Part shown: piece by piece, positions 3,495 through 33,643 of the stretch
How positions within the stretch are numbered: position 1 is the first letter of the stretch
How the letters are laid out: each line of letters opens with the position of its first letter
Source: Phycisphaerales bacterium Planc_01
GTDB lineage: Bacteria; Planctomycetota; Phycisphaerae; Sedimentisphaerales; Anaerobacaceae
Assembly (NCBI GenBank): GCA_001603075.1
Contig: LVBB01000134.1
Span: 1-43,643 of the forward strand
Direction: 5' to 3'
DNA: 43,643 nucleotides
Notes under the pieces: model-generated
Seen by the model: the letters and a program-made list of their open reading frames with translations, nothing else
The model's database searches: none
Told to the model about the DNA's origin: nothing
Position numbers and translations under genes: made by a program

Positions 3495-4321
3495 GGTCTG
3501 TCACAGTGGGTTGCGTCATGCTGTTTGTCATGACGGGCGGGGCCGGCCGGTGCGCGGCGGACGAGCCGATTGTGTTGAACGAGGAGGCACAGCTCCAGCC
3601 GATCGAGCCGGGCGCGTGGATGGTGGTCCACCGGTTTGCCGGCGGCAACAACAGCCTGCTGGTGCAGTGCGACGAGCGGCGGTTCGTCTGGGTCGATACG
3701 CCGTGTACCGACGAGGCGACGCGGCTGGTCCACGAGTGGATCATTCGGACCTTCGCCGATCCGAACGTCATCCAGATCAATACGGGCTTCCACAACGACA
3801 ATCTCGGTGGCAACGGCTATCTGCTCGCCCAGGGTGTCCCGTGCTATGGCTCGGACCTCACGCCGAAGCTCATCGCCGAATGCTGGGCCGAGACGGTGCG
3901 GAAGGTGCTGCCGTATTTCGCCGGGCCGGAGAACGAGAAATACCGCGACATCCTCGTCCATCAGAAGCTCGTCGCCCCCAATCGCCTCTACCCGTTGGCC
4001 GACGGCCTGACGATGAAGGTCGGTCCTGAGACGGTGGAGGTCCACTTCCCCGGCCCGTCGCACACGCTCGACAACGTCGTGGTCTACTTCCGGAATCGCC
4101 GGCTGCTGTTCGGCGGCTGTATGGTCAAGGCCCTGGCCTCGCGCAGCCCGGGCTTCACAGGCGATGCCGACATGGCCGCCTGGCCCGCCTCGGCCCACAA
4201 GCTGCTGGCGCGATACCCCGATGCCCGCATCGTCGTGCCCGGTCATGGCGCCTGGGGGGACCTGGCCCTGGTGCGCCACACGGTCGAACTGTGCCGGCAA
4301 TACAACGAACGACAGCGGTAG
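3491..4321 (+). CDS. Secreted metallo-beta-lactamase-fold hydrolase, B1/B2-like with His116 replaced by Gly
   Basis: This 276-residue protein has a signal peptide (about 1-23) and the landmarks of subclass B1/B2 beta-lactamases: INTGFHNDNLGGN (96-108), PGPSHTLDNVVVY (187-199), LLFGGCMVK (205-213) and VVPGHG (248-253). By alignment the ligands are H101 (His118), D103 (Asp120), H191 (His196), C210 (Cys221) and H252 (His263). The first zinc ligand, His116, is Gly99. B2 enzymes such as CphA carry Asn there and bind one catalytic zinc, so a single-zinc enzyme is plausible. Arg/Cys121 is Asn104. It overlaps the deacetylase gene by 4 bp. Beta-lactam hydrolysis is possible but unproven; another hydrolase activity is as likely. 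Confidence 0.85.
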   Translation: MRSVTVGCVMLFVMTGGAGRCAADEPIVLNEEAQLQPIEPGAWMVVHRFAGGNNSLLVQCDERRFVWVDTPCTDEATRLVHEWIIRTFADPNVIQINTGFHNDNLGGNGYLLAQGVPCYGSDLTPKLIAECWAETVRKVLPYFAGPENEKYRDILVHQKLVAPNRLYPLADGLTMKVGPETVEVHFPGPSHTLDNVVVYFRNRRLLFGGCMVKALASRSPGFTGDADMAAWPASAHKLLARYPDARIVVPGHGAWGDLALVRHTVELCRQYNERQR

Positions 4322-4365
4322 GAGGCCGCCGCGCCAAACCGCTGTATTGCACGGGAGACCCGAGC

Positions 4366-6318
4366 ATGAAGGCACACCACACGACAACACGCATCGTTAT
4401 CACCACCGCACTCTTGCTCCGTTTCTCGTCGTCGCTGGCGGCTCCGGACGGCGCGGCCGACGAGCCATTTCCCGGTGATCGCGGAGCCCCGCTCGATCTG
4501 GCCAGCCGGGACGACATCTGGGACCGGGAGGCCAAGACGTTCCTCGAACGCTTCGTGCGGGTCCCGCGCGACCAGGTAGTCGGCTTCGCCCTCTACACGC
4601 ACGAGGCCGGTGTCCTGAAGATCAGCGCGCAGCTCTATCCGCTCCAGGGCGATGAGCCGCGAGAGGTGCGCCTCGAATTCCATCGGGATGAGCGCTGGCA
4701 GGAGGCGGCCAAGGCCCCCGTGGTCTACCCCGGCTGGTCCGCCCATTTCCGCATCGAGCCCTGGGACGGCCGTCGCGATGTGCCGTACCGCGTTCGCCAC
4801 GGCGACCGCGCCGTGTTCGAAGGGCTCATCCGCAAGGACCCGAAGGACAAGGACACCATCGTCGTCGGCTCGCTGTCGTGCAGCTCCAACGCCGATCGCG
4901 GCGAGCGACGCGAGATCGTCGAGAAGCTCAAGGCCCAGGACCCCGACCTGCTGTTCTTCGCGGGCGACCAGAGCTACGATCACACCGAGCACACGGCGGC
5001 CTGGTTGCTCTGGGGGCACCATTTCCGCGACGTCATCAAGGACCGACCCGTGGTGACCATCCCCGACGACCACGACATCGGCCAGGGCAACATCTGGGGC
5101 GAGAGCGGCATCGTGGCCGACTCGACGGCCGGCGATTCCGGCGGCTACTACTATCCCGCCGAGTACATCAACATGATCCATCGCTGCCAGACCTGGCACC
5201 TTCCCGATCCGGTCGATCCTCGGCCCGTCGAGCAGAACATCTCGGTCTACTTCACGCGCCTGCGGATCGGCGGCGTCGATTTCGCCATCCTCGCCGACCG
5301 CCAGTTCAAGAGCGGCCCGAAGGGCAAGATCCCGCAAATGGGCCCGCGCCCCGACCATATCCGCGAGGTTGGCTACGATCCCCACAAGATCGATTTGCCC
5401 GGACTGAAGCTCCTCGGCGACCGGCAACTGGCGTTTCTCAACGACTGGGGACAGGACTGGACCGGAGCGGTGATGAAAGCGGCGCTGTCGCAGACCGCCT
5501 TCTGTGGTGCGGTCCACCTGCACGGCTCGAAGGACAATCGCCTGCTGGCCGACCTCGACTGCAACGGCTGGCCGCAGACCGGACGCAACCGGGCCCTGGC
5601 GGCGCTGCGCCGGGCGCTGGCCTGCCACCTCTGCGGCGATCAGCATCTGGCCGTCGTGGTGCAGCACGGCATCGAAGCGTTTCGCGACGGCCCTTATGCC
5701 TTCACCAATCCCGCCATCGTCAACAGCTACTACGCGCGCTGGTGGTGGCCCGAAGATGAGAAGCCCGGCGCCGATTCTGTCGCGAACAGCCCGCTGCCGT
5801 GGACGGGCGATTACCTCGACGGCCTCTACAATCGCATCACGATGATCGCCTACGCCAATCCCAAGTTTGCCGACATCGGGACCATGCGCAAGAACCAGCG
5901 CGATCCGAGCGCCGTCCTCGGCGACGGTTACGGCCTGATCCGCTTCCACAAGCCGACGCGCACCATTACGTTCGAGTGCTGGCCGCGCTATGCCGATCTG
6001 GCGCAGGGCGACTCGGCCCAGTATCCCGGCTGGCCCGTCACGATCCGACTGGCCGACAACGACGGCCGCAGGCCCGTCGGCCACTTGCGTGAACTCCACT
6101 TCGAGGGGACCTCTGATCCCGTCGTGCAGGTGGTGCGCGAAGCGGACGGAGAGATCCTCTACACGCGACGGGTCCAGGGCCGGCGCTTTCGCCCGCCCGT
6201 CTTCGCGGCCGGCGCCTACACCGTCAAGGTCGGGCGCGACAGACCCACAGAGTGGATCGCCCGAGGGCTCGAACCGGTTTCGGACGGCGCCGAGCCGTTG
6301 GGCGTTCGTTTGCCGTAA
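4366..6318 (+). CDS. PhoD-like metallophosphatase, secreted
   Basis: The 650-residue product has an N-terminal export signal (ALLLRFSSSLAA, near 15-26). A beta-rich N-terminal domain leads to a calcineurin-like core with FFAGDQSYDH (197-206), IPDDHDIGQGNIWG (232-245) and a later CGDQHLAVVV, the metal-binding pattern of PhoD alkaline phosphatases/phosphodiesterases. An unfolding-sensitive insert with SGGYYYPAEYINMIHRC lies between core motifs, as in large planctomycete members. ATG 4366 is preceded by GGGAGA at 8 nt; an upstream in-frame ATG at 4291 would overlap the beta-lactamase-fold gene and precede the signal. The neighbours suggest release of phosphate from organic or polysaccharide-bound esters outside the cytoplasm; this is inference. 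Confidence 0.85.
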   Translation: MKAHHTTTRIVITTALLLRFSSSLAAPDGAADEPFPGDRGAPLDLASRDDIWDREAKTFLERFVRVPRDQVVGFALYTHEAGVLKISAQLYPLQGDEPREVRLEFHRDERWQEAAKAPVVYPGWSAHFRIEPWDGRRDVPYRVRHGDRAVFEGLIRKDPKDKDTIVVGSLSCSSNADRGERREIVEKLKAQDPDLLFFAGDQSYDHTEHTAAWLLWGHHFRDVIKDRPVVTIPDDHDIGQGNIWGESGIVADSTAGDSGGYYYPAEYINMIHRCQTWHLPDPVDPRPVEQNISVYFTRLRIGGVDFAILADRQFKSGPKGKIPQMGPRPDHIREVGYDPHKIDLPGLKLLGDRQLAFLNDWGQDWTGAVMKAALSQTAFCGAVHLHGSKDNRLLADLDCNGWPQTGRNRALAALRRALACHLCGDQHLAVVVQHGIEAFRDGPYAFTNPAIVNSYYARWWWPEDEKPGADSVANSPLPWTGDYLDGLYNRITMIAYANPKFADIGTMRKNQRDPSAVLGDGYGLIRFHKPTRTITFECWPRYADLAQGDSAQYPGWPVTIRLADNDGRRPVGHLRELHFEGTSDPVVQVVREADGEILYTRRVQGRRFRPPVFAAGAYTVKVGRDRPTEWIARGLEPVSDGAEPLGVRLP

Positions 6319-6371
6319 CGGTTCCGCTTTGAACGCGAACCACCGGCGTTCACCTGGAAAGGACTGCTGCC

Positions 6372-7991
6372 ATGTTGAACCGACGTGATTTCCTGAGGAT
6401 GGGTGGACTGTGCACGGCTTCGCTTCTGGCGGGCTGCCGTGTGGCGCCGCAACGAAAAGCGGCCGAGCGGCCGAACATCGTCTTCATCATGACCGACGAT
6501 CACGCTGCGCACGCTCTGAGCTGCTACGGCAGCCGGATCAACAAGACCCCGCACATCGACCGCCTGGCGCGCGAGGGCATGCGGTTCGAGAACTGCTTCT
6601 GCACCAATTCCATCTGTTCGCCCAGCCGGGCCGTCATCCTGACGGGCAAGTACAGCCATCTCAACGGGATGATCGTCAACATCTACGCCGGCCAGCCGTT
6701 CGACGGCAGCCAGCAGACCTACCCCAAGCTGCTCCAGAAGGCCGGCTATGAGACCGCCATGATCGGCAAGTGGCACCTCGGCAGCGACCCGACCGGGTTT
6801 GACTACTGGGAGGTTCTGCCCGGCCAGGGATCGTACTACAATCCGGACTTCATTCAGATGGACGGCTCGCGAAAGCGGTATGAAGGCTATTGCACCGACA
6901 TCATCACCGACCTGTCGATCGACTGGCTCAAAGAGCGACGCGACAGCGACAAACCCTTCCTGCTGATCACCCAGCACAAGGCGCCGCACCGCTGCTGGTC
7001 GCCGGCGCCGCGCCATCTGGGCAAGTACAGGCACGGGACGATTCCCGAGCCCAAGACGCTGTTTCCCGATCACTCCAGACGCTCGCCCGCCAGCGCCGAG
7101 AGCGAGATGTCCGTTCGCGACCATTTCCGCTGGGGCCACGACATGAAGTTCCGCGGCGAGAACCTCTTCGGCGACCATTTCGTCTCCGAAGGGGCGCACA
7201 ACGAATACAGCCGGATGACTCTTGCGCAGCGGCAACAGTGGGACGCACACTACGAGCCGGAAAACCAGGCGTTCATCGAGCAGATGCAGGCCGGCAAACT
7301 GACCGACGAGGACGTGGTTCGCTGGAAGTACCAGCGCTACATGCACGACTATCTCGGCTCCGTCGAGGCGGTGGACGAGGGCGTCGGACGTTTGCTCGAC
7401 ACCCTCGACGAAACCGGCCTGGCGGACAACACGATCGTCGTCTATACCTCCGATCAGGGCTTCTACCTCGGCGACCAGGGTTGGTACGACAAGCGCTTCA
7501 TGTACGAAGAGTCGCTGCGCATGCCGCTGCTGATCCGCTGGCCGCAACGGGTGCGCCCGCGCGCCGTCTCCGACGCGATGGTGCTGAACCTGGACTTCGC
7601 CGCGACGTTCCTCGACGCGGCCGGCGCGGCCGTCCCCGACGATATCCAGGGCGAGAGCTTCGTGCCGATCCTCCGGGGCCGCCGGCCGGCGAACTGGCGC
7701 AAGGCGATGTACTACCACTACTACGAGTACCCCGCGGTCCATCAGGTCAAGCGCCATTACGGCATCCGGACCGAGCGGTACAAGCTGATCCATTTCTACT
7801 ACGACATCGACGCCTGGGAGCTCTACGATCTGCGGAACGACCCGCACGAATGGAACAACCTCTACGACGATCCGAAGTACGCGCGGCTGGTCAAGCGTCT
7901 CAAAGCCGAGCTGGCCGAGTTGCGGTCTCGCTACGGCGACAGCGATGAACTGACGCGCAGCTTCCTGCCGAAACAGACGGCCAGGGTGTAG
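6372..7991 (+). CDS. Cys-type sulfatase (S1 family), Tat lipoprotein
   Basis: This 539-residue protein starts with a Tat-type signal ending in a lipobox (NRRDFLRMGG... ASLLAGC, lipid Cys near 22). NIVFIMTDD (35-43) supplies metal ligands, and ICSPSRAVILTG (81-92) is the sulfatase signature with Cys82 as the residue converted to formylglycine. GKWHLGS follows, and the C-terminal part is that of arylsulfatase/choline-sulfatase-like members. SD GGAAAGGA lies before the ATG. It closes the plus-strand group and ends only 8 bp from the convergent operon end at 8000. Cysteine-type sulfatases need a maturase; a likely anaerobic one is encoded at 40862-42004. The substrate is probably a sulfated polysaccharide or a fragment of one. 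Confidence 0.92.
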   Translation: MLNRRDFLRMGGLCTASLLAGCRVAPQRKAAERPNIVFIMTDDHAAHALSCYGSRINKTPHIDRLAREGMRFENCFCTNSICSPSRAVILTGKYSHLNGMIVNIYAGQPFDGSQQTYPKLLQKAGYETAMIGKWHLGSDPTGFDYWEVLPGQGSYYNPDFIQMDGSRKRYEGYCTDIITDLSIDWLKERRDSDKPFLLITQHKAPHRCWSPAPRHLGKYRHGTIPEPKTLFPDHSRRSPASAESEMSVRDHFRWGHDMKFRGENLFGDHFVSEGAHNEYSRMTLAQRQQWDAHYEPENQAFIEQMQAGKLTDEDVVRWKYQRYMHDYLGSVEAVDEGVGRLLDTLDETGLADNTIVVYTSDQGFYLGDQGWYDKRFMYEESLRMPLLIRWPQRVRPRAVSDAMVLNLDFAATFLDAAGAAVPDDIQGESFVPILRGRRPANWRKAMYYHYYEYPAVHQVKRHYGIRTERYKLIHFYYDIDAWELYDLRNDPHEWNNLYDDPKYARLVKRLKAELAELRSRYGDSDELTRSFLPKQTARV

Positions 7992-7999
7992 CTGCGCGA

Positions 8000-8761
8000 T
8001 TATCGTTCGATGACGCCGAGCAGTCGCAGCAGGCCGTCGAGAATGGCGATCGGATGGGGCGGGCAGCCGGGGACGTAGAGATCGACCGGAACGATCTCGC
8101 CGGCGCCCTTGTGGGTTTCCGGGTGATCGGCGAACAGGCCGCCCGAGACGGCACAGGCGCCGACGGCGACGACGATCTTCGGGTTCGGTGTGGCTTCGTA
8201 CGTCTTTTCGAGGGCCAGTTCCATGTTCTTCGTGACCGGCCCGGTGATCAGAAGGCCGTCGGCGTGGCGAGGCGAGGCCACGAACTGGATGCCGAACCGA
8301 CTCAGATCGAACACCACGGTGGTGAGCACGTTGACGTCGGCCTCGCACGCATTGCATCCGCCGGCGCTGACCTGGCGCAGCTTCAGAGAGTGGCCGAAGA
8401 GTGCCTTGGCCTGTTTGTCCAGGGCCTTGGCGAGCTGGAAGGGCCGGTCATTCACGACCAGCGCCTCGCGCGTGTCGGTCGCCATGCGGTATTCGCGGGT
8501 GAACTGTATGGCCCCGGTCGGGCAGGCGTCCGTGCAGTCGGTGCAGAACAGGCAGCGTCCCAGGTCGATGCGCAGGGCACCGTCCGCTTTGGTCAGCGCC
8601 GCGGTCGGGCACGCCTGAATGCAGGCGTCGCAGTCGGCGCGGCACAGGGCGGCGTCCCATTGCGGTCGTCCCATGTATCGCTCGGGCAGGACCGGCGGCT
8701 TGTCGGGAAAGCCGACCGTTCGATGGCCTTGTCTGAACCTTGCTCGCAGTGCGTTGAACAT
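8000..8761 (-). CDS. Fused 2[4Fe-4S] ferredoxin and HyfI/NuoB-like small subunit
   Basis: The 253-residue product joins two subunits that are usually separate. Residues 36-85 carry two [4Fe-4S] motifs (C40, C44, C47, C51 and C70, C73, C76, C80), as in HyfH/NuoI. Residues 130-253 are NuoB/HyfI-like, with C136 and C139 (GGCNACE), C203 (VGACAVSGG) and C233 (PGCPP) for the proximal cluster. Start 8761 is preferred because GAGG lies 8 nt upstream; the in-frame ATG at 8782 would overlap the HyfG-like gene. As the last gene of the operon it should carry electrons within the peripheral arm. All cluster cysteines are intact, in contrast to the partner large subunit. Confidence 0.88.
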   Translation of the reverse strand: MFNALRARFRQGHRTVGFPDKPPVLPERYMGRPQWDAALCRADCDACIQACPTAALTKADGALRIDLGRCLFCTDCTDACPTGAIQFTREYRMATDTREALVVNDRPFQLAKALDKQAKALFGHSLKLRQVSAGGCNACEADVNVLTTVVFDLSRFGIQFVASPRHADGLLITGPVTKNMELALEKTYEATPNPKIVVAVGACAVSGGLFADHPETHKGAGEIVPVDLYVPGCPPHPIAILDGLLRLLGVIER

Positions 8762-8771
8762 CACGTCGGCC

Positions 8772-10286
8772 TCACAGGTCATGTCCGCAATAGGACAGGT
8801 TGAAGCTCTTGTTGCAGAGCGGGAAATCGGAGATCTGCTGGCCGCGAAGGGCCATCGCCAGTCCGAACCAGTTGTGGAACGACGGGTCGGTGACTTTGTA
8901 GTGCCGCAATCGGCCGCCGTCACCGGTGATCGCGACGTGGCAGATCTCACCTCGCCATCCCTCGACCAAAGCCACGGCCAGATGGTCGGGGGCCGGCGGG
9001 GCTGGTTCCTGCTGGATCGGTCCGGCAGGCAGGGCGGCGATCTCTTCGGCGACGAAACGGACCGAGTTGCGAATCTCGAACCATCGCACGTACGCCCGCG
9101 CGCAGACGTCGCCTGCCGGCAGACTGACCGTCGGCACGTGGTGTGCCCGGTATGCTCCCCAGGGCAGATCGTTTCTGACGTCCAGGTTCACGCCGCTGGC
9201 GCGTGCGGCCGGACCGACCAGGCCCATCGCGGCAGCATCGTGACATGAGATAGTCCCGGTTCCCTCGAACCTCGCCATCACGGAGGGCGTCTGCCACAAC
9301 AGGTTCACGGCGTTCTCGGTGTCGGCGAACGTCGTTTCGATTCGTTTCAACAGCTCGTCGGCGATTCGTGGCGTCAGGTCGAACCGCACGCCGCCGGGGC
9401 GGACGAGATTGCGTCCGAAGCGGTTGCCGCAAAGCAGGGCGGTTGTGTTGAGGAAGTCGCCGCGCAGCCGGCCACAGAACGAGGCGGTCGGCAGGAACCC
9501 AACGTCGTTGGCCAACGCGCCCAGGTCGCCGGTGTGGTTGGCCAGTCGCTCGATTTCGAGGGCAACGGCGCGAAGGGCCTGCGCGCGAGGCGTTGCGGTG
9601 GTCTCGCCGAGCGCCTCGATCGCCAGGGCAAAGGCGGTGGCGTGGCCGATGCTGGTGTCGCCGGCGAGCGTCTCGACGTAATGCGCCGTCCGCCGGTCGG
9701 GGCCGCCGAGGATCGCCCGCTCGATGCCGCGATGCTGGTAGCCGAGCTCGATCTCCAGATGCAGCACGTTCTCGCCGTGGCACTGGAATCGGAAGTGGCC
9801 GGGCTCGATGATACCGGCGTGCACGGGACCGACGGCCACTTCGTGGATCTCCTCGCCTTCGACGCGGAAGTAGTCAGTCACGCACGGCTCGATCGCGCGG
9901 GTCCTGTCGCGACCCCACGCGTCGCTGTCACTACGATAGCAGGGGTGGAAGCGGATCGGCTTGAGCCACGGATGGCCCTCCGGCACGATGCCCCACTGTT
10001 CGGCGATCTCCCGCTCGAACCAGTGCGCCTGGGGTGTCTCTGGGGTCAGGGCCGGATAGGCGTCGCGGACTTGTGTCCGGCACAGTTCCAGGACGCCTTG
10101 CCGATCGTTGGCCAGCACCGCCAGCAGGGCGATTCGGTCGCCGTGCGGCATGCCGAACAACGAGGAGATTCGCCGCCCGTCGGCGATGCGTTCAAGAATG
10201 GCCGTGCGGAACTCCGACATCGTCAGCTCGGGCACTTTCGCCAGCGGCAGGGCCTGGCCGTTGTACACGTGCGGCAGCATCGTCAT
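8772..10286 (-). CDS. HyfG/NuoCD-like large subunit lacking all Ni-Fe cysteines
   Basis: The 504-residue protein has a NuoC-like N-terminal region (HWFEREIAEQWGI with GHPWLKPI, 88-111) fused to a NuoD/hydrogenase-large-subunit domain. Where [NiFe] hydrogenases have CGxCSxxH, this protein has AGDTSIGH (208-215): both cysteines are replaced (A208, T211) while Gly, Ser and His remain. Where they have DPCxxC near the C-terminus, it has NLSYCG (496-501): the ligand positions are Ser and Gly, and the single Cys500 is one place off. The chain ends just after at GHDL. This fits the energy-converting hydrogenase-related (Ehr) class described from comparative work, whose reaction is not established. 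The start overlaps the HyfF-like gene by 4 bp. Confidence 0.9.
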   Translation of the reverse strand: MTMLPHVYNGQALPLAKVPELTMSEFRTAILERIADGRRISSLFGMPHGDRIALLAVLANDRQGVLELCRTQVRDAYPALTPETPQAHWFEREIAEQWGIVPEGHPWLKPIRFHPCYRSDSDAWGRDRTRAIEPCVTDYFRVEGEEIHEVAVGPVHAGIIEPGHFRFQCHGENVLHLEIELGYQHRGIERAILGGPDRRTAHYVETLAGDTSIGHATAFALAIEALGETTATPRAQALRAVALEIERLANHTGDLGALANDVGFLPTASFCGRLRGDFLNTTALLCGNRFGRNLVRPGGVRFDLTPRIADELLKRIETTFADTENAVNLLWQTPSVMARFEGTGTISCHDAAAMGLVGPAARASGVNLDVRNDLPWGAYRAHHVPTVSLPAGDVCARAYVRWFEIRNSVRFVAEEIAALPAGPIQQEPAPPAPDHLAVALVEGWRGEICHVAITGDGGRLRHYKVTDPSFHNWFGLAMALRGQQISDFPLCNKSFNLSYCGHDL

Positions 10287-11749
10287 TGGCCCGGCCCTCC
10301 AAATAATTGCGCTGCGGCGTGGAGCTTCTCGACGAGGGCGTGGGGCAGATGCACTCCCAGAAGGATCGCCAGTACGGCCAGGGCGACGGGCCCGAGCACG
10401 GCGGTGATCGGCTCGCGCTGCGGCCTCTCTTCGGACCGGCCCAGCGCCATCCGCAGAACGATGATCGACATGGCGACGAACACCAGCAGGAGGAACCCCG
10501 CGTACAGCGCCGCGACAACCCAGCGCTGCCGGTCGAGAATCGCCTTGAGGATGGTGAACTCAGTGACGAACGTGCCGAACGGGGGCGAGCCGGTGATGGC
10601 CAGGAAGCCCGCGATCCACAGCACGCCGGAGACCGGAAGCACGCGGCAGAGCCCCTGCACCTTGAGCGTGTCCTTCGTGTGGAAGCGAGCGAGGATGTTG
10701 CCGGCCGTCAGGAACAGCATCGCCTTGACGAGCGAATGGTTGACCGCGTGAAGCAGCGAGCCGAATGCGCCGAGCCCCCCGAGTCCGACGCCCAGCGCGA
10801 GAATGCCCATGTGCTCGACGCTTGAATAGGCGAGCATACGCTTGTAGTCGGTCTGACGGAGGATGAAGACACCGGCCAATCCCATCGACAGCAGTCCGAA
10901 CACGATCAGCAGATCGCCCCCGAACGCGGCCATGCCGGCTGCGGCGGCTACCTGTTGTACCCGCAGGATACCGAGGAAGGCGCAGTTCAGCAGCGCCCCG
11001 GACAGCAGCGCCGAGACCGGCGCCGGCGCCTCGCTGTGCGCGTCGGGCAGCCACGCGTGCAGCGGTGCCAGACCCATCTTGGTGCCGTAGCCGACGAGCA
11101 GGAAGAGGAAGGCCGTGCCGAGCCATTTGTGATTCACTTCTCCGGCCTGACGCAGCAGGGCGTCGACGGTCAGGACGTCGAGGCCGCCGGGGACCGTCAT
11201 GCGGATGAAGAAGAGGCCCAGAAGAGCCAGGCCGATCCCCACCGAACAGAGGATCACGTACTTCCATGCGGCCTCGAGAGACCGTCGGCTGCGGTGGTAG
11301 TAGACCAGTGGGGCACTGGCGAGCGTCGTCGCCTCGATCGCCACCCACTGCAGGGCGAAGTGCCGACTGACAACGGCCAGGCTCATCGTGGCCAGCAGCA
11401 GAAGAAGGCTTCCCGTGAAGATGGACTCCGGCTCGTTGATCTGGAGGCGGCCGCCCTCCGGATCGCGGCGCGGCGTGACGGGCTCGCGATGGACGTAGCC
11501 GATCCCGTAGACCGTCACCGCCAGGAACAGCAGGCTCGTCAGCACGAGGAAGACGGCGCTGAGTGAATCGACTCCGATCCACCCGTCAAACACCGCGGGC
11601 GGGGCGGGAAGCGAAACGACGACGGACGCGGAGAAATGGAACGCGGCGACGGCGCCCCACAGCAGACGCCGTAGGCGGTTCGAGCGAACGAAGTACGATA
11701 CCACCCCGGCCACGGCCGGAACGAGCAGGAGCGCCACAAGGAGGCTCAT
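10283..11749 (-). CDS. HyfF-like antiporter-type membrane subunit
   Basis: This 488-residue polytopic protein belongs to the NuoL/M/N-Mrp antiporter superfamily in its hydrogenase-4 branch. It shows the TM5 glutamate (WVAIEATTLASAP, E139), the TM7 lysine in GYGTKMGLAPLHAWLPDAH (K224) and YKRMLAYSSVEHMGILALG, all expected in the ion-translocation path. The TM8 region reads SGALLNCAF, where many Nuo homologues have a lysine; Asn is common in the HyfF branch as I remember it. Its ATGA overlaps at both ends (with the HyfE-like stop and the HyfG-like start) indicate coupled translation. Role: ion translocation in the membrane arm of the Ehr-type complex. Confidence 0.9.
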   Translation of the reverse strand: MSLLVALLLVPAVAGVVSYFVRSNRLRRLLWGAVAAFHFSASVVVSLPAPPAVFDGWIGVDSLSAVFLVLTSLLFLAVTVYGIGYVHREPVTPRRDPEGGRLQINEPESIFTGSLLLLLATMSLAVVSRHFALQWVAIEATTLASAPLVYYHRSRRSLEAAWKYVILCSVGIGLALLGLFFIRMTVPGGLDVLTVDALLRQAGEVNHKWLGTAFLFLLVGYGTKMGLAPLHAWLPDAHSEAPAPVSALLSGALLNCAFLGILRVQQVAAAAGMAAFGGDLLIVFGLLSMGLAGVFILRQTDYKRMLAYSSVEHMGILALGVGLGGLGAFGSLLHAVNHSLVKAMLFLTAGNILARFHTKDTLKVQGLCRVLPVSGVLWIAGFLAITGSPPFGTFVTEFTILKAILDRQRWVVAALYAGFLLLVFVAMSIIVLRMALGRSEERPQREPITAVLGPVALAVLAILLGVHLPHALVEKLHAAAQLFGGPGQ

Positions 11750-12417
11750 TCGCGTGCCTCCGAGATCAGGTCGTGTGAACCCGATGCATCCGACAGTTCC
11801 GTCAGCTTGTCCGCGTCGAGATGGTCGAATTCACGATCCAAGTGAAACAAGAGATTGCCCATGATGAACAGGCCGACGGAGACGTCCAGCAGGATGCCCA
11901 GCTCCACGAGGAACGGCGACTCCAGGCTCATACCGATGCCTACCACGTACACTCCGTTCTCCATCACGAGATAGGCCAGCGACTGCGTGATGGCCTTGCG
12001 CCGGCTGACCATGAGAAACAGACCGGTGAGCACCAGGAAGAAGGCGGTGGTCAGCAGAAGCCCCGAGGCCTCGGCCCCGGTCAGTTGCAGGCTTGCGGTG
12101 ATCCACTGCGACAGCGCCAGAAGCGCGACGCCGCAGAGAATCGATGCGCCGAATCCGATGAATGGTTCGATCTCCCGGTGCACCCGCGAACGGCGCAGGG
12201 CCACGCTCATCAGCCAGGGCAGCGCGAAGCCCTTGGTGGCGATGATGACGACCGCCAGAATCCAGATATGCAGATGAAGGTCTCCCTCGGCCCTGACGAG
12301 GGGAAGCAGGCCCACCAGGACGCCCTGGACAGCGACCACGCGGATCGCCACACGCAGGCGGCTGGACCCGAGCAGCAGCAGGCAGGAGAGGATGAGAAAG
12401 ACCGACGTGGCGTCCAT
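11746..12417 (-). CDS. HyfE-like membrane subunit
   Basis: The 223-residue product is made of about seven hydrophobic segments and matches hydrogenase-4 subunit E in order and character. The C-terminal half (YLVMENGVYVVGIG, LVELGILLDVSVGLFIMG) is NuoK-like and keeps the buried glutamates of that family, followed by a short charged tail. The start at 12417 lies 5 bp after the HyfC-like stop. Upstream frame extension to 12645 runs across the HyfC-like gene and was discarded. It probably links the HyfC-like subunit to the antiporter subunits. Confidence 0.88.
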   Translation of the reverse strand: MDATSVFLILSCLLLLGSSRLRVAIRVVAVQGVLVGLLPLVRAEGDLHLHIWILAVVIIATKGFALPWLMSVALRRSRVHREIEPFIGFGASILCGVALLALSQWITASLQLTGAEASGLLLTTAFFLVLTGLFLMVSRRKAITQSLAYLVMENGVYVVGIGMSLESPFLVELGILLDVSVGLFIMGNLLFHLDREFDHLDADKLTELSDASGSHDLISEARE

Positions 12418-12422
12418 GTTCG

Positions 12423-13340
12423 CTACCCCATCCACTTGACGATCAGGGCGATCAGGCTCAGTGTGGCCGAACCGATCAGGATTTTCGGAATCTGCAGGAG
12501 CCTCAGCCGCGCCAGGATGGATTCCACGACCCCGACGAGGACGGCGACGAGGGCCATCCCGAGCAGAAATGTTGGGATCTGCGACCACCACGGCAACGAG
12601 TGCAGGGGGAAGATCAGATTGACGATCAGCGTGCTGAAGATCCACAGTTTCAGGGCGGCGGCGTAGAGGATATAGGCCAGGTCCGGCCCGCTGTAGTCGA
12701 GCACCATGACCTCGTGGATCATGGTCAGTTCGAGATGGGTGTTCGGGTCGTCGATCGGAATGCGCGAGTTCTCCGTCAGCAGCAGAACGAACCAGGAGCC
12801 GGCTACCAGCAACAGCAGCAGATTGCCGCCATGTCCGGTGTTTGCGGAAACTCCCGAGAGGATGCCCGAAAGCCCCTGGAAACCGGAGTGCAGGACGAGG
12901 ACCAGCATGCCGAGGAAGAACGACGGCTCGGCCAGTGCGGCGTACTGGACCTCACGGCTGGCGCCCATGCCTTCGAAGCTCGATCCCGTGTCCAATGCCG
13001 CCAGAACCGTGGCGAAGCGGGCCAGGCCGAGAAGATAGGCCAGAAGAACGACGTCGCCGACAAAGCTCACGGGCGCTCTGAACGCACCCCACGGCAGGAT
13101 CGCGGTGCAGACCGCCATGCAGGCCAGGATCACAGCCGGCGCCGCGCGGAGGATGCCGCTGGTGGACCGGCTGTAAACGGACCCCTTCCGCAGCAGCTTG
13201 AACAGATCGTAATAAGGCTGCCACAGTGACGGCCCCTTCCTTCCGCCGAAGAACGCCTTCACTCGGTTGATGATGCCGAGGATGACAGGCGACAGAAGCC
13301 ACGCGGCCAGCGGAAGACCCCAGTTCAAATGGCTCGTCAT
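12423..13340 (-). CDS. HyfC/NuoH-like membrane subunit
   Basis: This 305-residue polytopic protein carries the family motifs GRKGPSLWQPYYDLFKLL (33-50), a conserved glutamate-rich loop (FEGMGASREVQYAALAEPSFF) and SRIPIDDPNTHLELTMIHE. These correspond to the NuoH/HycD subunit that docks the peripheral arm and forms the entry of the coupling channel. Conservation of the acidic loop residues suggests that coupling is retained, even though the catalytic nickel site is lost. It overlaps the HyfB-like stop by 4 bp. Confidence 0.92.
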   Translation of the reverse strand: MTSHLNWGLPLAAWLLSPVILGIINRVKAFFGGRKGPSLWQPYYDLFKLLRKGSVYSRSTSGILRAAPAVILACMAVCTAILPWGAFRAPVSFVGDVVLLAYLLGLARFATVLAALDTGSSFEGMGASREVQYAALAEPSFFLGMLVLVLHSGFQGLSGILSGVSANTGHGGNLLLLLVAGSWFVLLLTENSRIPIDDPNTHLELTMIHEVMVLDYSGPDLAYILYAAALKLWIFSTLIVNLIFPLHSLPWWSQIPTFLLGMALVAVLVGVVESILARLRLLQIPKILIGSATLSLIALIVKWMG

Positions 13341-15322
13341 CGTATCCCCGCCTTCCAGAAGAGCAGAAGCAACACGAGGGTCGCGGCGATATAGAGCAGG
13401 TACTCATGAACGCGTCCGTGCTGCATCCTTCGAATCGGGACGACCAGACGGTCGATCGATCGGAACAGAGGAACGAAGAGACGCTCGTGGGCCGCATCCG
13501 GGGTATCGGTCTCGAATGTGGCGCGGGGCGGGAAGAACCCACGCACGGCGATGCCCCGTTTGCGTGTTCCCAGCAGCGTCCGGAACAGATCGACCAGCGG
13601 CTGGGCGAAGGACGAGGCGGTGTATTGCATTCGTGGCGTTGGCCGTGCGAAGCCGCAGTCCCATGTTCCTGTCTCGGTCTGCTGTGTGCCGCGCGGCAGG
13701 AGTCGGCGGACGAGCAACAGGCCAGCCGTCACCAGCAGCAGCGCCGCCGAAACATGAACGACGCCTGTCAGATCTCGAATCGCGCCGGCCGCGGGTCCCA
13801 ACATCGCCTTCGGATCGCCGCCGGCCACGACGGCAACAGCGGGAAGCACCCCGCGCACCGCCCCAGGCGCCAGCAGGCCGATGGCGACGCACGCGACTGC
13901 CAGGGCCGCCATGGGCCATCGCATAGCCGCACCGGCTTCATGAGCGCCGCCGGCGTGGTCGCTTCGCGGCTCACCGAGAAACACCATGCCGAACGCCTTG
14001 GCGAAGCAGGCCGCAGCCAGACCACCGATCAGCGCCAGGCCGGTGAGGATGCAGATCGCCAGGACGACCGTCTCGGGCGATGCGGCGCGCACGCCGTGAA
14101 ATGCGGCGATGTAGATGAGGAACTCACTGACGAAGCCGTTGAACGGAGGCAGTCCGCAAATGGCGGCCGCCGCCACCAGAAACGCCAGGCCGGTCCATCG
14201 CATCCGCTTCATCAGCCCGCCGAGGCGGTCGATATCCCGGATGCCCGTTCCGTGCACCACGGCGCCGGCGCCGAGGAACAGCAGGCTCTTGAACATCGCG
14301 TGATTGAGCACGTGAAGGAGGCCGCCGCCGAAGCCGAGCACGACCAGGGCCGGCTGTTCCCAGCTCATGCCCAGGATGCCCACACCAAGTCCAAGAGTGA
14401 TGATTCCGATGTTCTCCACACTGGAATATGCCAGGAGCCTCTTGATGTCGTTCTGCGCCAGGGCGAACGCGATGCCGAGGAGGCCGGACATCAGGCCCAC
14501 GACCACCAGCGCCCACCCCCACCCGGCCGACGGTGCGCCCAGCAAGGTCAGAACGCGAAGCAGTCCGTAAATGCCGGTCTTGATCATCACGCCCGACATC
14601 AGCGCCGAGACGTGGCTCGGTGCCGCCGGGTGGGCTTGCGGCAGCCAGACGTGCAGCGGAAAGAACCCTGCCTTCGAACCGAAGCCGATGACTGCCAGGG
14701 CGAACAGGACGGTCGCCATGGTGGGGGATCGCCCAACCGCCGCCAGGACGCCGAAGTCCAGCGAATCGGCCCCTGCGCCGAGCAGGGCGAACATCGCCAG
14801 CAGCGCTGCGGTGCCGATGTGCGTAGCGACCAGATAGGTCCAGCCGGCCCGACGCACGTGGGCATGCTCGTCGTCGAAGATCACGAGGAAGAAGGAGCTG
14901 ATCGCCATGATCTCCCAGACGACCAGGAACAACAGCCCGTTACGCGTCGCGACCAGCAGGAGCATGCTGGCGACCAGGACGTTGTAGAAGAACAGGACCG
15001 CTTTGAGCGAACGTGTGTGTCCGGCGAGGTATCCGACGCCATACAGCGCCGCCAGAGGCGAAACGAAGAGGATCGGCAGACAGAAGAACGCCGAGAGTCC
15101 GTCGAGGGCGAACGACAGCGATCCGCCGGGCATGCTCCAGGCCCATTGCAGTGGCTGCGGCGCCTGGCCGCCCAGGGCCGAGACGACGGGAATCGACGCC
15201 AGGCCGCAACCGATCCAGACCCCCATCGCGGCGATCCATCGGGCCGGCCTCGGACCATTCACGAGAAGGGCGGCCACACCGCTGAGAACGGCAAACCCGC
15301 AACCGACCAGAAACAGCACCAT
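13337..15322 (-). CDS. HyfB-like antiporter-type membrane subunit
   Basis: The 661-residue protein is a NuoL/HyfB-type member of the antiporter superfamily: TM5 glutamate in VVWEIMAISS (E137), TM7 lysine in GFGSKAGFFPLHVWLPQAHP (K217), and TM8 lysine in SGVMIKTG (K248). The C-terminal 200 residues add further membrane segments and a cytoplasmic stretch (GTWDCGFARPTPRMQYTASS) typical of HyfB. I chose 15322 because it opens into the first membrane helix 11 bp after the EIIA gene; the open frame extends upstream into that gene but lacks support. Together with the HyfF-like subunit it would provide ion channels. Confidence 0.9.
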   Translation of the reverse strand: MVLFLVGCGFAVLSGVAALLVNGPRPARWIAAMGVWIGCGLASIPVVSALGGQAPQPLQWAWSMPGGSLSFALDGLSAFFCLPILFVSPLAALYGVGYLAGHTRSLKAVLFFYNVLVASMLLLVATRNGLLFLVVWEIMAISSFFLVIFDDEHAHVRRAGWTYLVATHIGTAALLAMFALLGAGADSLDFGVLAAVGRSPTMATVLFALAVIGFGSKAGFFPLHVWLPQAHPAAPSHVSALMSGVMIKTGIYGLLRVLTLLGAPSAGWGWALVVVGLMSGLLGIAFALAQNDIKRLLAYSSVENIGIITLGLGVGILGMSWEQPALVVLGFGGGLLHVLNHAMFKSLLFLGAGAVVHGTGIRDIDRLGGLMKRMRWTGLAFLVAAAAICGLPPFNGFVSEFLIYIAAFHGVRAASPETVVLAICILTGLALIGGLAAACFAKAFGMVFLGEPRSDHAGGAHEAGAAMRWPMAALAVACVAIGLLAPGAVRGVLPAVAVVAGGDPKAMLGPAAGAIRDLTGVVHVSAALLLVTAGLLLVRRLLPRGTQQTETGTWDCGFARPTPRMQYTASSFAQPLVDLFRTLLGTRKRGIAVRGFFPPRATFETDTPDAAHERLFVPLFRSIDRLVVPIRRMQHGRVHEYLLYIAATLVLLLLFWKAGIR

Positions 15323-15333
15323 GGGCACGTCTT

Positions 15334-16008
15334 TCAAGAATCCGTTCGGAAGCGGCTTTCCATCCGGGCGAAGATCTCCAGGATGGCCTCTCGCGAGGCC
15401 TCGTTCTGGATTGCCTCTTTGCACGCCGGATCGCGTAGAGCGAACGACAGTTTCGCCAACGTTCGCAGATGCGTCCGCACGTTGGGCGAGATCAACAGAA
15501 ACAGGGCGTGTACGGGCTTGCCATCCAGGGCGCCGTAGTCGATCGGCGTCTCGAGAAACGCCAGCGAAAGGACCGGCTGGCGGACGTACCCGAGCAGCGA
15601 GCCGCGGGCGTGGGGGATGGCGATTCCCTCGCCGATGCCCGTCGGGGCCAGCTCTTCGCGGGCCAGAAACATCTCGAACAGGGGTTGGGAACTGCTCTCG
15701 TCGATCCCTTTGACCATGTCCAGGGCGTTCTGAAGCACCTGTCGTTTCGTTTTGCCCCCGATCCGGTAGAAGACGCCTCCCTTGGCGAGCATCTCATGCA
15801 AGGGGATGTCTTCGTCCGGCTCGCCTTCGTGTCCGTCCTCGGGGACCGGCCGCAATCCTTGCCGAATCACCAGGTCGTTCACCTCCGACCTCTCGATGAA
15901 ATGCTGGCCCCCCAGGCGATGGACCGGCAGCCGGCCGTCTTTGATCCAGCGATAAACGGTCTTCTGTGAAACGCCGAGCAGGTCCGCTGCCTGACGAACC
16001 GAAAGCAT
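15334..16008 (-). CDS. HTH-PTS EIIA (type 2) fusion protein, first gene of the Ehr-type operon
   Basis: The 224-residue product joins an excisionase/MerR-like helix-turn-helix (SVRQAADLLGVSQKTVYRWI, then LPVHRLGGQHFIER, 3-40) to a type 2 PTS EIIA domain (about 68-224). GIAIPHARG (128-136) holds the phosphorylatable His133. In PTS systems EIIA passes phosphate between HPr and sugar permeases; here no permease is present, so a regulatory role is likely. Fusion to a DNA-binding domain supports phosphorylation-controlled transcription. It lies 11 bp before the HyfB-like gene and behind a good promoter. A related protein is encoded at 32924-33643, without the Ehr genes. Confidence 0.88.
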   Translation of the reverse strand: MLSVRQAADLLGVSQKTVYRWIKDGRLPVHRLGGQHFIERSEVNDLVIRQGLRPVPEDGHEGEPDEDIPLHEMLAKGGVFYRIGGKTKRQVLQNALDMVKGIDESSSQPLFEMFLAREELAPTGIGEGIAIPHARGSLLGYVRQPVLSLAFLETPIDYGALDGKPVHALFLLISPNVRTHLRTLAKLSFALRDPACKEAIQNEASREAILEIFARMESRFRTDS

Positions 16009-24165: not shown

Positions 24166-24279
24166 TCCGCTCGGCAGCGTGAGGGCAACGCATGCGTTGG
24201 CCCTACGACCTGCGATGACGAAGTGCACTTGCGATCCGGCGATACGGCAATCGACGGTTGCCTGAACCGCGGTGGGGCG
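24141..24279 (+). repeat. 139-bp direct repeat, copy 2
   Basis: This is the second copy of 23624-23762, 517 bp downstream. Its palindrome (24183-24202) is spoiled by a C-to-G change. It ends 46 bp before the UbiA gene. Confidence 0.9.
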
Positions 24280-24325
24280 GTATTGTGGTGCGCTTCTCGA
24301 ACAGTCACGAGTTTTGGAGATGGGC

Positions 24326-25252
24326 ATGGCTGAGGTGGTGGCAGGGCGCGCGGGGACGTGGGCCGTCTGGTTGCGGGCGGTGCGGACGTTCTCGTTTCCG
24401 GCGTCGATCGTGCCGGTCGTCGTCGGGGCGGCGATGGCAGCGCGTGTGGAGGGGCCGGTGGCGTGGTGGCTGGTGCCGTTCGTGGCGGTCGCGTCGGTCC
24501 TGATGCACGCCGGGACCAACCTCATCAACGACTTCTTCGACTACCTCAAGGGCGTGGACACCGACTATTCTTACGGCGGCAGCCGCGTCCTCGTCGAAGG
24601 GTTGCTGTCGCCCCGGCAGGCCTTTGTCGGAGCGCTGGCGATGTTCGCCGCCTCGTGCGCCATCGGGCTACTGTTCATCGCCGTACGCGGCTGGCCCATC
24701 TTGGCGCTGGGCGTCGTCGGCCTGCTCGCCGGGTTCTTCTACACGGCCCGGCCCGTCGGGTACAAGTACTTCGCGCTGGGCGATGCCCTGGTCTTCATCC
24801 TGATGGGTCCGCTGATGGTCATCGGCTCGTACTTCGTCCTGACCGGCTCGTACGATCACGCGGTCCTCATCGCCAGTCTGCCCGTCGGCTGTCTCGTCGC
24901 CGCCATCCTGGCCGCCAACAACATGCGTGACATCCAGCACGACCGCGATGCCCAGGTGCGCACCGTCGCCAGCCTGCTGGGCCACGATCGCGCACGGCTG
25001 GAGTACTATGGCCTCGTCGGCGGGGCCTACGTCGCCGTGCTGGGGATGATCGCCGGCGGGCTGGTCGGCGCGTGGGGTCTGCTGGTCCTCGTCACTGTGC
25101 CGCTGGCGGTCCGCAACGTTCGGCGGCTGGCCCGAAGTCTGCCGCTACAGCCGCAGACCATCGCGACGCTCGATGTGCAGACCGCGCAGTTGCATCTGGC
25201 GTTCGGGCTGCTGTTTGCCCTGGCGATTCTGCTCAGCGCGGTGTTCCAATGA
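24326..25252 (+). CDS. UbiA-family prenyltransferase (MenA-like)
   Basis: The 308-residue polytopic protein carries the two aspartate motifs of the family: NDFFDYLKGVDTD (68-80) and NNMRDIQHDRDAQVRT further on. These bind the Mg-diphosphate of a prenyl donor. The YxxxGSRVLVEG loop and the second motif are closest to 1,4-dihydroxy-2-naphthoate polyprenyltransferase (MenA), so a role in menaquinone synthesis is likely but no other men gene is present. GGAG precedes ATG 24326 by 6 nt. It overlaps the CPBP gene by ATGA. Confidence 0.88.
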   Translation: MAEVVAGRAGTWAVWLRAVRTFSFPASIVPVVVGAAMAARVEGPVAWWLVPFVAVASVLMHAGTNLINDFFDYLKGVDTDYSYGGSRVLVEGLLSPRQAFVGALAMFAASCAIGLLFIAVRGWPILALGVVGLLAGFFYTARPVGYKYFALGDALVFILMGPLMVIGSYFVLTGSYDHAVLIASLPVGCLVAAILAANNMRDIQHDRDAQVRTVASLLGHDRARLEYYGLVGGAYVAVLGMIAGGLVGAWGLLVLVTVPLAVRNVRRLARSLPLQPQTIATLDVQTAQLHLAFGLLFALAILLSAVFQ

Positions 25253-32923: not shown

Positions 32924-33643
32924 ATGCCCTATCGCAGTCTGACGGTGAAGGAGTTGGCGCGGATGCTGGGTGCCGACGCCCGCCGGCTGGAGCGCATGGC
33001 CCAGCGGGGGGAGATTCCCTGCCAGAAGGTCGGCGGCGAGCTGCGGTTCAACCGTGCCCAGATCACCGAATGGCTCCAGCAGAACATGGGCACGATGACG
33101 GGCGACCATCTGGCGGAGGTGGACGCGGGCATGACGGCCCAGCGGCAGAAGCCGCAGAATGAGGCGATCGTTCGCCCGCTGCTGCGGCCGGAAGCGGTGA
33201 CCGTCCAACTGAACTCGCGGGGCAAGAACAGCCTGCTGCGCGAGCTGGTGGCCCTGGCGATGCGGACCGGCCTGGTCTACGACGAGTCGGCCCTGCTCGA
33301 AGCGGTGATGGGCCGCGAGGAGATGCACAGCACGGCCATGGACGGCGGTATCGCGATCCCTCACCCGCGCCGGCCGTTGCCGTACGAGATCGCCGATTCG
33401 GTGCTGGTGGTGGCCAAGGCCAGCCGGGGCATCGTCTTCGGGGCGCCCGACGGCAAGCTGACCGATCTGTTCTTCCTGACGGCCTCGCAGGACGACACGC
33501 ACCACCTGCACATTCTGGCCCGGCTGTGCCGCATGCTCCACGACGACGACTGGGTCGAGCGATTGCACGCGTGCGAGACGGGCGAGGAGATGATCGATCT
33601 GCTGATCGAACGCGAAGCACAAGTCATCGCGCAATCGGCATAG
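32924..33643 (+). CDS. HTH-PTS EIIA (type 2) fusion protein, second copy
   Basis: The 239-residue protein has an excisionase-like HTH (YRSLTVKELARMLGADARR, 3-21; PCQKVGGELRFNR to 44) followed by a type 2 EIIA domain (about 85-235) with the phosphorylatable His147 in GGIAIPHPRR (141-150). It parallels the product of 15334-16008 in domain order but is divergent in sequence. No PTS permease, HPr or EI gene is nearby. GGGGAGG precedes ATG 32924. It may regulate genes by binding DNA according to its phosphorylation state; its targets are unknown. Confidence 0.87.
   Translation: MPYRSLTVKELARMLGADARRLERMAQRGEIPCQKVGGELRFNRAQITEWLQQNMGTMTGDHLAEVDAGMTAQRQKPQNEAIVRPLLRPEAVTVQLNSRGKNSLLRELVALAMRTGLVYDESALLEAVMGREEMHSTAMDGGIAIPHPRRPLPYEIADSVLVVAKASRGIVFGAPDGKLTDLFFLTASQDDTHHLHILARLCRMLHDDDWVERLHACETGEEMIDLLIEREAQVIAQSA

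Follow-up and report, generated by a model that had tools for sequence, protein, structure and literature searches.

Gene content and organization of the locus

The window examined in this work is contig LVBB01000134.1 of Phycisphaerales bacterium Planc_01, a stretch of 43,643 nucleotides. On its minus strand it carries, from 16008 to 8000, a tight operon of seven genes resembling those of hydrogenase-4: HTH-EIIA, hyfB, hyfC, hyfE, hyfF, hyfG and hyfHI (Table 1). HTH-EIIA denotes a protein that combines a helix-turn-helix (HTH) domain with an enzyme IIA (EIIA) domain of the phosphotransferase system (PTS). Neighbouring hyf open reading frames (ORFs) overlap by 4 bases or are separated by short gaps; start codons of hyfB and hyfHI were picked by eye.

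An earlier interpretation made from the letters alone (sequence-only reading) listed six structural genes, hyfB, hyfC, hyfE, hyfF, hyfG and a fused hyfHI. ORF positions and family models agree with these assignments, but the seventh gene, HTH-EIIA, was overlooked. According to Pfam and NCBIfam models and alignments, the operon encodes a group 4-type subunit set, consisting of two antiporter subunits, NuoH- and HyfE-like subunits, and large and small subunits. Matches to NADHdh, Complex1_49kDa, Complex1_30kDa, Oxidored_q6 and Fer4 pass the Pfam cut-offs, and the hydrogenase-4 NCBIfam scores of HyfB, HyfF and HyfE all lie under the models' own cut-offs. Channel residues are intact as proposed: E137/K217 of HyfB (counted from ATG) and E139/K224 of HyfF align with E144/K234 of NuoM. 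No sigma-70-type site was detected on the operon strand by a promoter scan; a terminator scan gave 10 matches versus 4.8 in shuffles, both strands counted.

Table 1. Genes and motifs of the operon, in window coordinates
Feature	Position	Strand	Description
HTH_17 (excisionase-type) + PTS EIIA_2 (PtsN-like) gene	15334-16008	-	224 aa; Pfam PTS_EIIA_2 1.1e-25, HTH_17 1.6e-15; His133 conserved; likely local regulator
hyfB-like antiporter subunit	13337-15322	-	661 aa from ATG at 15322; NCBIfam hydrogenase 4 subunit B 610 bits (cut-off 667)
hyfC-like (NuoH) subunit	12423-13340	-	305 aa; Pfam NADHdh 4.9e-32; closest solved chain 7z0s_D
HyfC loop THLELTMIHE, residues 201-210	12711-12740	-	3 residues longer than in E. 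coli HyfC, HycD and NuoH
hyfE-like subunit	11746-12426	-	NCBIfam hydrogenase 4 membrane subunit 83 bits (cut-off 136)
hyfF-like antiporter subunit	10283-11749	-	488 aa; NCBIfam hydrogenase 4 subunit F 368 bits (cut-off 610)
hyfG-like (EhrL, NuoCD-like) large subunit	8772-10286	-	504 aa; without NiFe ligands
AGDTSIGH, hyfG residues 208-215, replacing CGxCxxxH	9642-9665	-	Alignment; G209 and D210 in 95/95 rows
NLSYCG, hyfG residues 496-501, replacing DPCxxC	8784-8801	-	Protein ends three residues on
Fused hyfH-hyfI (EhrS-like)	8000-8761	-	253 aa from ATG at 8761; two ferredoxin-type [4Fe-4S] sites and an N2-type site

Loss of nickel ligands in the large subunit

Both CxxC pairs, which hold the four Ni-binding cysteines of group 4 [NiFe] hydrogenases, are absent from HyfG. 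The motifs AGDTSIGH and NLSYCG line up without gaps with CGICGFAH and DPCYSC of Escherichia coli HycE/HyfG, and the residue numbers given for them in the sequence-only reading are correct. A search with one genome per species retrieved 385 relatives of the large subunit, the best 80 of which were retained (57-94% identity to the window protein; 15 phylum labels, 10 of the 80 unassigned). These loci, none of them from Geobacter, represent the group that we call type A. A sequencing error that would restore the CxxC motifs had been named as a possible refutation. It can be excluded, since the replaced motifs recur across these best 80 of 385 loci (one locus, L087, is cut before the tail); conservation likewise rules out a degenerate pseudo-enzyme.

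The alignment of HyfG comprises 95 rows, 92 of them distinct, as three pairs are one sequence taken twice. Of the 95 rows, 87 (84 of 92 distinct) share the C-terminus FPLCNKSFNLSYCGHDL, and S498, Y499, G501, D503 and L504 are found in all 94 rows that reach this point. Residues on the pocket side are near-invariant (E161 and D210 in 95/95, R445 and K493 in 94/94 rows). E161 and R445 align with residues that we take to lie near the hydrogenase active site. A single cysteine occurs at position 208 in 4 of 95 rows. Six cysteines off the old ligand positions, C169, C271, C286, C449, C491 and C500, are conserved in type A; C169, C449, C491 and C500 are candidates for a new four-cysteine site in the cleft, and vary outside type A.

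The AF2 model of HyfG (pLDDT 86.7) has its best solved match in chain 7z0s_E (Z 42.6, root-mean-square deviation 2.5, 482 residues). HycE of E. coli formate hydrogenlyase is the closest solved chain also by sequence (5e-49), and Mbx/MBS chain 6u8y_L is a weaker match. Among the 50 rows given by VIA-align there is no Mbx/MBS chain, which is uninformative.

Relationship to known complexes

Group 4-like subunits without Ni-binding cysteines, as in the window, have been described under the name Ehr (Ech- or energy-converting-hydrogenase-related) in Geobacter, Nitrospira, Methylacidiphilum and Riflemargulisbacteria (PMC12342949, PMC10284858, PMC7304191). Ehr was found in the candidate phyla radiation (PMC7304191), its subunits were covered by Geobacter proteomics (PMC7894505, PMC8691401), a complex with formate dehydrogenase (PMC6349859) and a role in pH (PMC6688271) were considered possible, and HydDB leaves Ehr out as non-hydrogenases (PMC5037454). 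The function of Ehr, including that of Nitrospira, is reported as unknown (PMC12342949, PMC10284858, PMC7304191), and this was still said in 2025 (PMC12342949). Nothing in the window excludes membership, and the operon is an ordinary member of this known class without proven function. The passages of these papers that were read do not mention HTH-EIIA, the loop of HyfC or the cysteine-bearing sister described below. These three features, together with repeated breakage of the electron wire in relatives and evidence against menaquinone, are what is new in this work.

The closest solved relative is formate hydrogenlyase/hydrogenase-4 (group 4a; HycE, HyfG), which has the same subunit types. Group 4a differs from the window complex in having CGxC and DPCxxC motifs, a PFDxxEAExEL loop in HyfC, separate HyfH and HyfI, and a C-terminal extension of HycE/HyfG. 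Complex I (NuoB/CD/H/K/LMN) has in common with the window complex its fold, Fe-S wire, antiporter residues and the position at which the large subunit terminates. In contrast to complex I, the operon lacks an NADH module, and no NADH-oxidising module was detected among the 30 window ORFs scanned or as a recurrent neighbour at the 80 loci. According to the alignment, I160 and G209 occupy the positions of the quinone-site histidine and tyrosine of NuoD (49-kDa subunit).

To place HyfG among its relatives, a phylogenetic tree was constructed from 56 large subunits, including 20 of the 44 type-A rows of one alignment, and rooted on NuoD, which is an assumption. Sequences for trees were trimmed to the last 520-560 residues. 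Cysteine-less rows form one clade (100/100, stem 1.82), which lies within cysteine-bearing group 4 as sister to HyfG/HycE among the rows used, and the window protein is far from NuoD. This agrees with the earlier assignment to an Ehr-type complex that is not a hydrogenase.

We also surveyed 392 planctomycete genomes, of which 51 matched at 1e-50. Seven operons (L167-L172 and L176; family f53) have CGVC and NKSFELCYSCTDL, and thus the complete set of four ligands within an Ehr-like frame. A second tree, from which two long-branched rows (L123, L124), 8 near-identical hydrogenase rows and every second type-A row were left out, places this group, which we label the Cys4 clade, as sister to the Ehr rows used (100/100), with Ehr itself supported at 99/96. 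Both groups share EPGHFRF, NKSF and THLELTMxHE motifs; unlike Ehr, the Cys4 clade retains CGVC and LCYSC. No EIIA gene was found in the Cys4 stretches read. A HypD match is absent from four of the seven Cys4 genomes, each with a completeness of 96% or more. The usual NiFe cofactor may therefore be missing from the retained cysteines, a point that is suggestive only. Placement inside a cysteine-containing hydrogenase clade had been named as an outcome that would contradict the sequence-only reading. With the NuoD root Ehr does nest in cysteine-bearing group 4 and has a cysteine-bearing sister, but no cysteine-bearing row falls inside Ehr. For the nickel-ligand trait a single change is needed on a tree of 125 rows.

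The two long-branched rows come from plasmids of M. branderi (L123) and B. cenocepacia (L124). Their operons are Ehr-like and very divergent (EhrY), with hyfB at the end, a different C-terminus of the large subunit and DUF190 genes nearby.

Two sequence signatures of Ehr

One signature of Ehr is the HyfG tail NKSxNxSYxGxDL. The other is a HyfC loop of the form P(V/I)DxPxTHLELTMxHE, overlooked in the sequence-only reading; its counterpart in E. coli HyfC, HycD, NuoH and in hydrogenases of the relatives is of the shorter PFDxxEAExEL type. THLELTMxHE is found in 69 of the 80 type-A loci, which are exactly the loci with a hyfC match of more than 100 bits (69/69). The motif also occurs in Rhizobium, Cupriavidus, Methylocalor, Variovorax (twice) and Allomeiothermus, with SSHLELTMLHE in Rhodococcus; antiporter E/K pairs are retained in Rhizobium and Allomeiothermus. 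Because the Cys4 clade has the loop too, its presence places the loop before the loss of ligands.

On a Variovorax plasmid (L112), another hyfB-C-E-F set starts roughly 3.4 kb beyond the first Ehr operon and continues past the edge of the stretch.

The Fe-S electron wire

Three [4Fe-4S] clusters are predicted in the window complex, two in the HyfH part and one, of N2 type, in HyfI. All 12 cysteines of the fused subunit are intact, as the sequence-only reading had it; its statement that no recognised redox site is left was overstated, as the NiFe site alone is missing. The same 12 cysteines are present in 86 of 89 aligned type-A small-subunit rows. Among 119 pairs of large and small subunits, representing all Ehr types but EhrY, 98 have an intact wire. 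These counts include near relatives and refer to rows, not events. Records omitted from this tally and from the trait tree are EhrY, L001-L017, L155, the duplicates L135, L136, L139 and L147 (equal to L165, L166, the window and L178), and L143, L161, L164 and L173, in whose stretches the small subunit was not found. The full electron wire is thus kept in the window's own group and is not a universal need of the Ehr class.

The Ehr operon on a plasmid of Allomeiothermus silvanus (L113) lacks ligands of N2 and of cluster I; the same plasmid carries a further small-subunit copy at another place, identical to the first over 268 residues.

Association with an HTH-EIIA gene

Gene order could be judged at 52 of the 80 loci, those in which hyfB is present with at least 700 bases before it. 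At 48 of these 52, HTH-EIIA directly precedes hyfB on the same strand within 700 bases. Exceptions are L043 and L044 (no such gene), L086 (divergent orientation) and L104, a split operon with EIIA before hyfG. L064 is also split, with EIIA before hyfG. There (3782-12371), EIIA-hyfG-hyfHI precedes genes for DabA, for two antiporter-like proteins and for a transporter of SulP type that has a P-II domain, so that inorganic-carbon uptake genes lie beside a split Ehr operon.

The association extends to whole genomes. Among 61 relatives, 15 of the 16 genomes with type-A Ehr have a close HTH-EIIA homolog (38-100% identity, E at most 1.3e-47), versus 0 of 45 others (Fisher p 2.3e-13, not corrected for kinship). 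Similarly to PtsN (EIIA-Ntr), the protein belongs to the EIIA_2 family and has the active-site histidine, His133, which is conserved in 53 of 53 aligned rows. It differs from PtsN in its additional N-terminal HTH domain and in its score of 83 bits against the curated PtsN value of 138.7 bits. A literature search on a link between HTH-EIIA and Ehr returned nothing relevant, which is not proof of novelty. PTS enzyme I (EI), present in 58 of 61 genomes, is uninformative as a discriminating partner.

A second HTH-EIIA paralog, 28% identical to the operon regulator, lies in the window at 32939-33619 (+). Genome G023, in which one type-A Ehr was found, has a second close HTH-EIIA copy (C104:9994-10653).

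Genomic context and quinones

The genome is 97.4% complete. Its one PF00346 match is hyfG of the operon, meaning that NuoD of complex I is absent, a fact missed by the sequence-only reading; four NuoF-type PF10589 matches and PTS EI are present. The lack of hyp genes in the window had been taken as expected for a non-hydrogenase. Since the genome encodes HypD and, on another contig, a [NiFe] hydrogenase large subunit, this lack says nothing. Matches of about 30% in relatives were considered as NuoD and rejected, as each of the 13 that were read (L019-L031) carries CGIC and is a group 4 hydrogenase. Nor is there mutual exclusion between Ehr and other group 4-like matches across the order (6/10/17/28, p 1.0; matches partly read).

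Neither MqnA/D nor MenD was found in the Planc_01 genome or in the other 12 good type-A Ehr-positive relatives, where good means at least 90% complete and at most 5% contaminated (13 genomes in total). Of all 16 type-A Ehr-positive genomes, 14 are without these enzymes, and the less complete G038 and G053 have MqnA/D. For this reason, menaquinone is probably not the acceptor, as judged from gene content. A UbiA-family prenyltransferase gene lies in the window at 24272-25252 (+), in a genome without matches to MqnA/D or MenD. UbiA was dropped as a quinone marker, since all 61 relatives and all 14 controls have it.

In a survey of neighbours with crude ORF picking and many short contigs, no gene family adjacent to the operon occurs at more than 14 of the 80 loci; a response-regulator family was found at 14 and an ABC ATPase family at 5.

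Models of function

Starting from the observed genes, losses, conserved residues and gene linkage, we infer the donor, the pumping, the use of the pocket and the action of the regulator in the following model, to which we assign a probability of roughly 0.5. Type-A Ehr would be a ferredoxin-fed ion pump of the complex I superfamily with a soluble acceptor and local PTS control. It would descend from a group 4 [NiFe] hydrogenase in which the four nickel ligands were lost once. Electrons would be supplied at low potential, most likely by reduced ferredoxin, to the two ferredoxin-type clusters of HyfH, reach the N2-type cluster of HyfI and exit to a small soluble acceptor bound in the former NiFe cleft, presumably lined by E161, D210, R445, N492-K493 and the invariable SYxGxDL tail at the C-terminus. 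The energy released would move ions through HyfC and the two antiporter subunits, and HTH-EIIA may switch the operon, in one direction or the other, by the phosphorylation state of the PTS. Support comes from the Fe-S cysteines, pocket motifs, antiporter pairs, closeness to HycE in fold and sequence, missing menaquinone genes, replaced quinone-site residues and the linked, co-inherited HTH-EIIA.

Several observations weigh against this model. Cysteines of N2 are gone in 5 of 119 rows (L153, L165, L166, L179 and Allomeiothermus); in L153, three of the four ligand losses are visible, the contig ending before the fourth. Of the 119 rows, 8 lack the ferredoxin domain and another 8 lack cluster I alone. 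On the tree, N2 loss amounts to three changes (L153, the L018 clade of three genomes, and Allomeiothermus), two of which are forced by strong branches, and loss of the ferredoxin domain to 3 changes, 2 of them forced. M. branderi, outside that tree, is also without N2, and B. cenocepacia (L124) retains it. As the wire is broken in related branches, electron delivery is not universal in the clade. Genome G046 has type-A Ehr and no EIIA, and G052, among the 45 others, has a divergent L018-type Ehr without close EIIA. THLELTMxHE was not found by the patterns used in L123 and L124, whose tails differ too, and no partner dehydrogenase or acceptor gene is recurrent beside the operon at the 80 loci (a crude survey with crude ORF picking and many short contigs). 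Finally, pLDDT of the HyfG model is below 50 at residues 153-163 and 498-504, i.e. at the pocket, so the lining given above is drawn from the alignment.

The broken wires speak for a rival model, an ion transporter in which redox chemistry would be optional. Ion movement would be gated or driven by a ligand in the HyfG/HyfC cleft, and Fe-S clusters would be sensors or structural relics that can be lost set by set. THLELTMxHE persists in the N2-less L165, L166 and Allomeiothermus, the Ehr tail in the three L018-clade genomes, L153 and Allomeiothermus, and antiporter E/K pairs in Rhizobium and Allomeiothermus. On the other hand, type A keeps all 12 cysteines almost throughout, none of the 119 rows is without all three clusters, and N2-less rows all retain cluster II. 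We favour the ferredoxin-fed pump with soluble acceptor and regard the redox-optional transporter as possible at a clearly lower probability. Slightly more tentative is its extension to the whole class, according to which non-redox ion transport, controlled by a ligand in the cleft (NKSxNxSYxGxDL and THLELTMxHE), would be the defining activity of Ehr. In that case the remodelled cleft would date from a cysteine-bearing ancestor that may already have dropped the Hyp-built NiFe cofactor, clusters would be optional and lost piecemeal, and type A would have kept them and brought the pump under direct PTS (phosphoenolpyruvate/pyruvate) control.

Other readings appear less probable than these. A ferredoxin:quinone oxidoreductase, for which a headless complex I would have been invented a second time, would agree with the fold, the NuoD-like scores, the lack of NuoD in the genome and the presence of UbiA-family genes; it is unlikely given the replaced quinone-site histidine and tyrosine, the missing MqnA/D and MenD in the 13 good type-A genomes (Planc_01 being G000) and the universal, hence uninformative, distribution of UbiA. 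Full quinone pathways were also not identified in Ehr-bearing Riflemargulisbacteria (PMC6349859). Rather improbable as well, and slightly more so, is that formate dehydrogenase feeds or drains the complex, as in the FDH-Ehr proposal (PMC6349859). Geobacter Ehr subunits were high on formate versus hydrogen-containing conditions (PMC7894505), but no formate dehydrogenase gene was detected among the 30 window ORFs scanned and no such family is recurrent beside the 80 loci. The presence of HypD and a [NiFe] hydrogenase in the genome would speak for a hydrogenase that is cryptic or decayed; this is highly implausible given how strongly the clade is conserved, with the ligand pairs absent from every row and one change on the tree sufficient for ligand loss.

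Implications for the Ehr family

Ehr complexes occur in many phyla, and our results narrow their function. In the order studied here, the evidence directs away from menaquinone, and a dedicated regulator can now be tested. Natural variants missing one cluster or another, together with the cysteine-bearing sister clade, make the fate of a hydrogenase after nickel loss directly testable.

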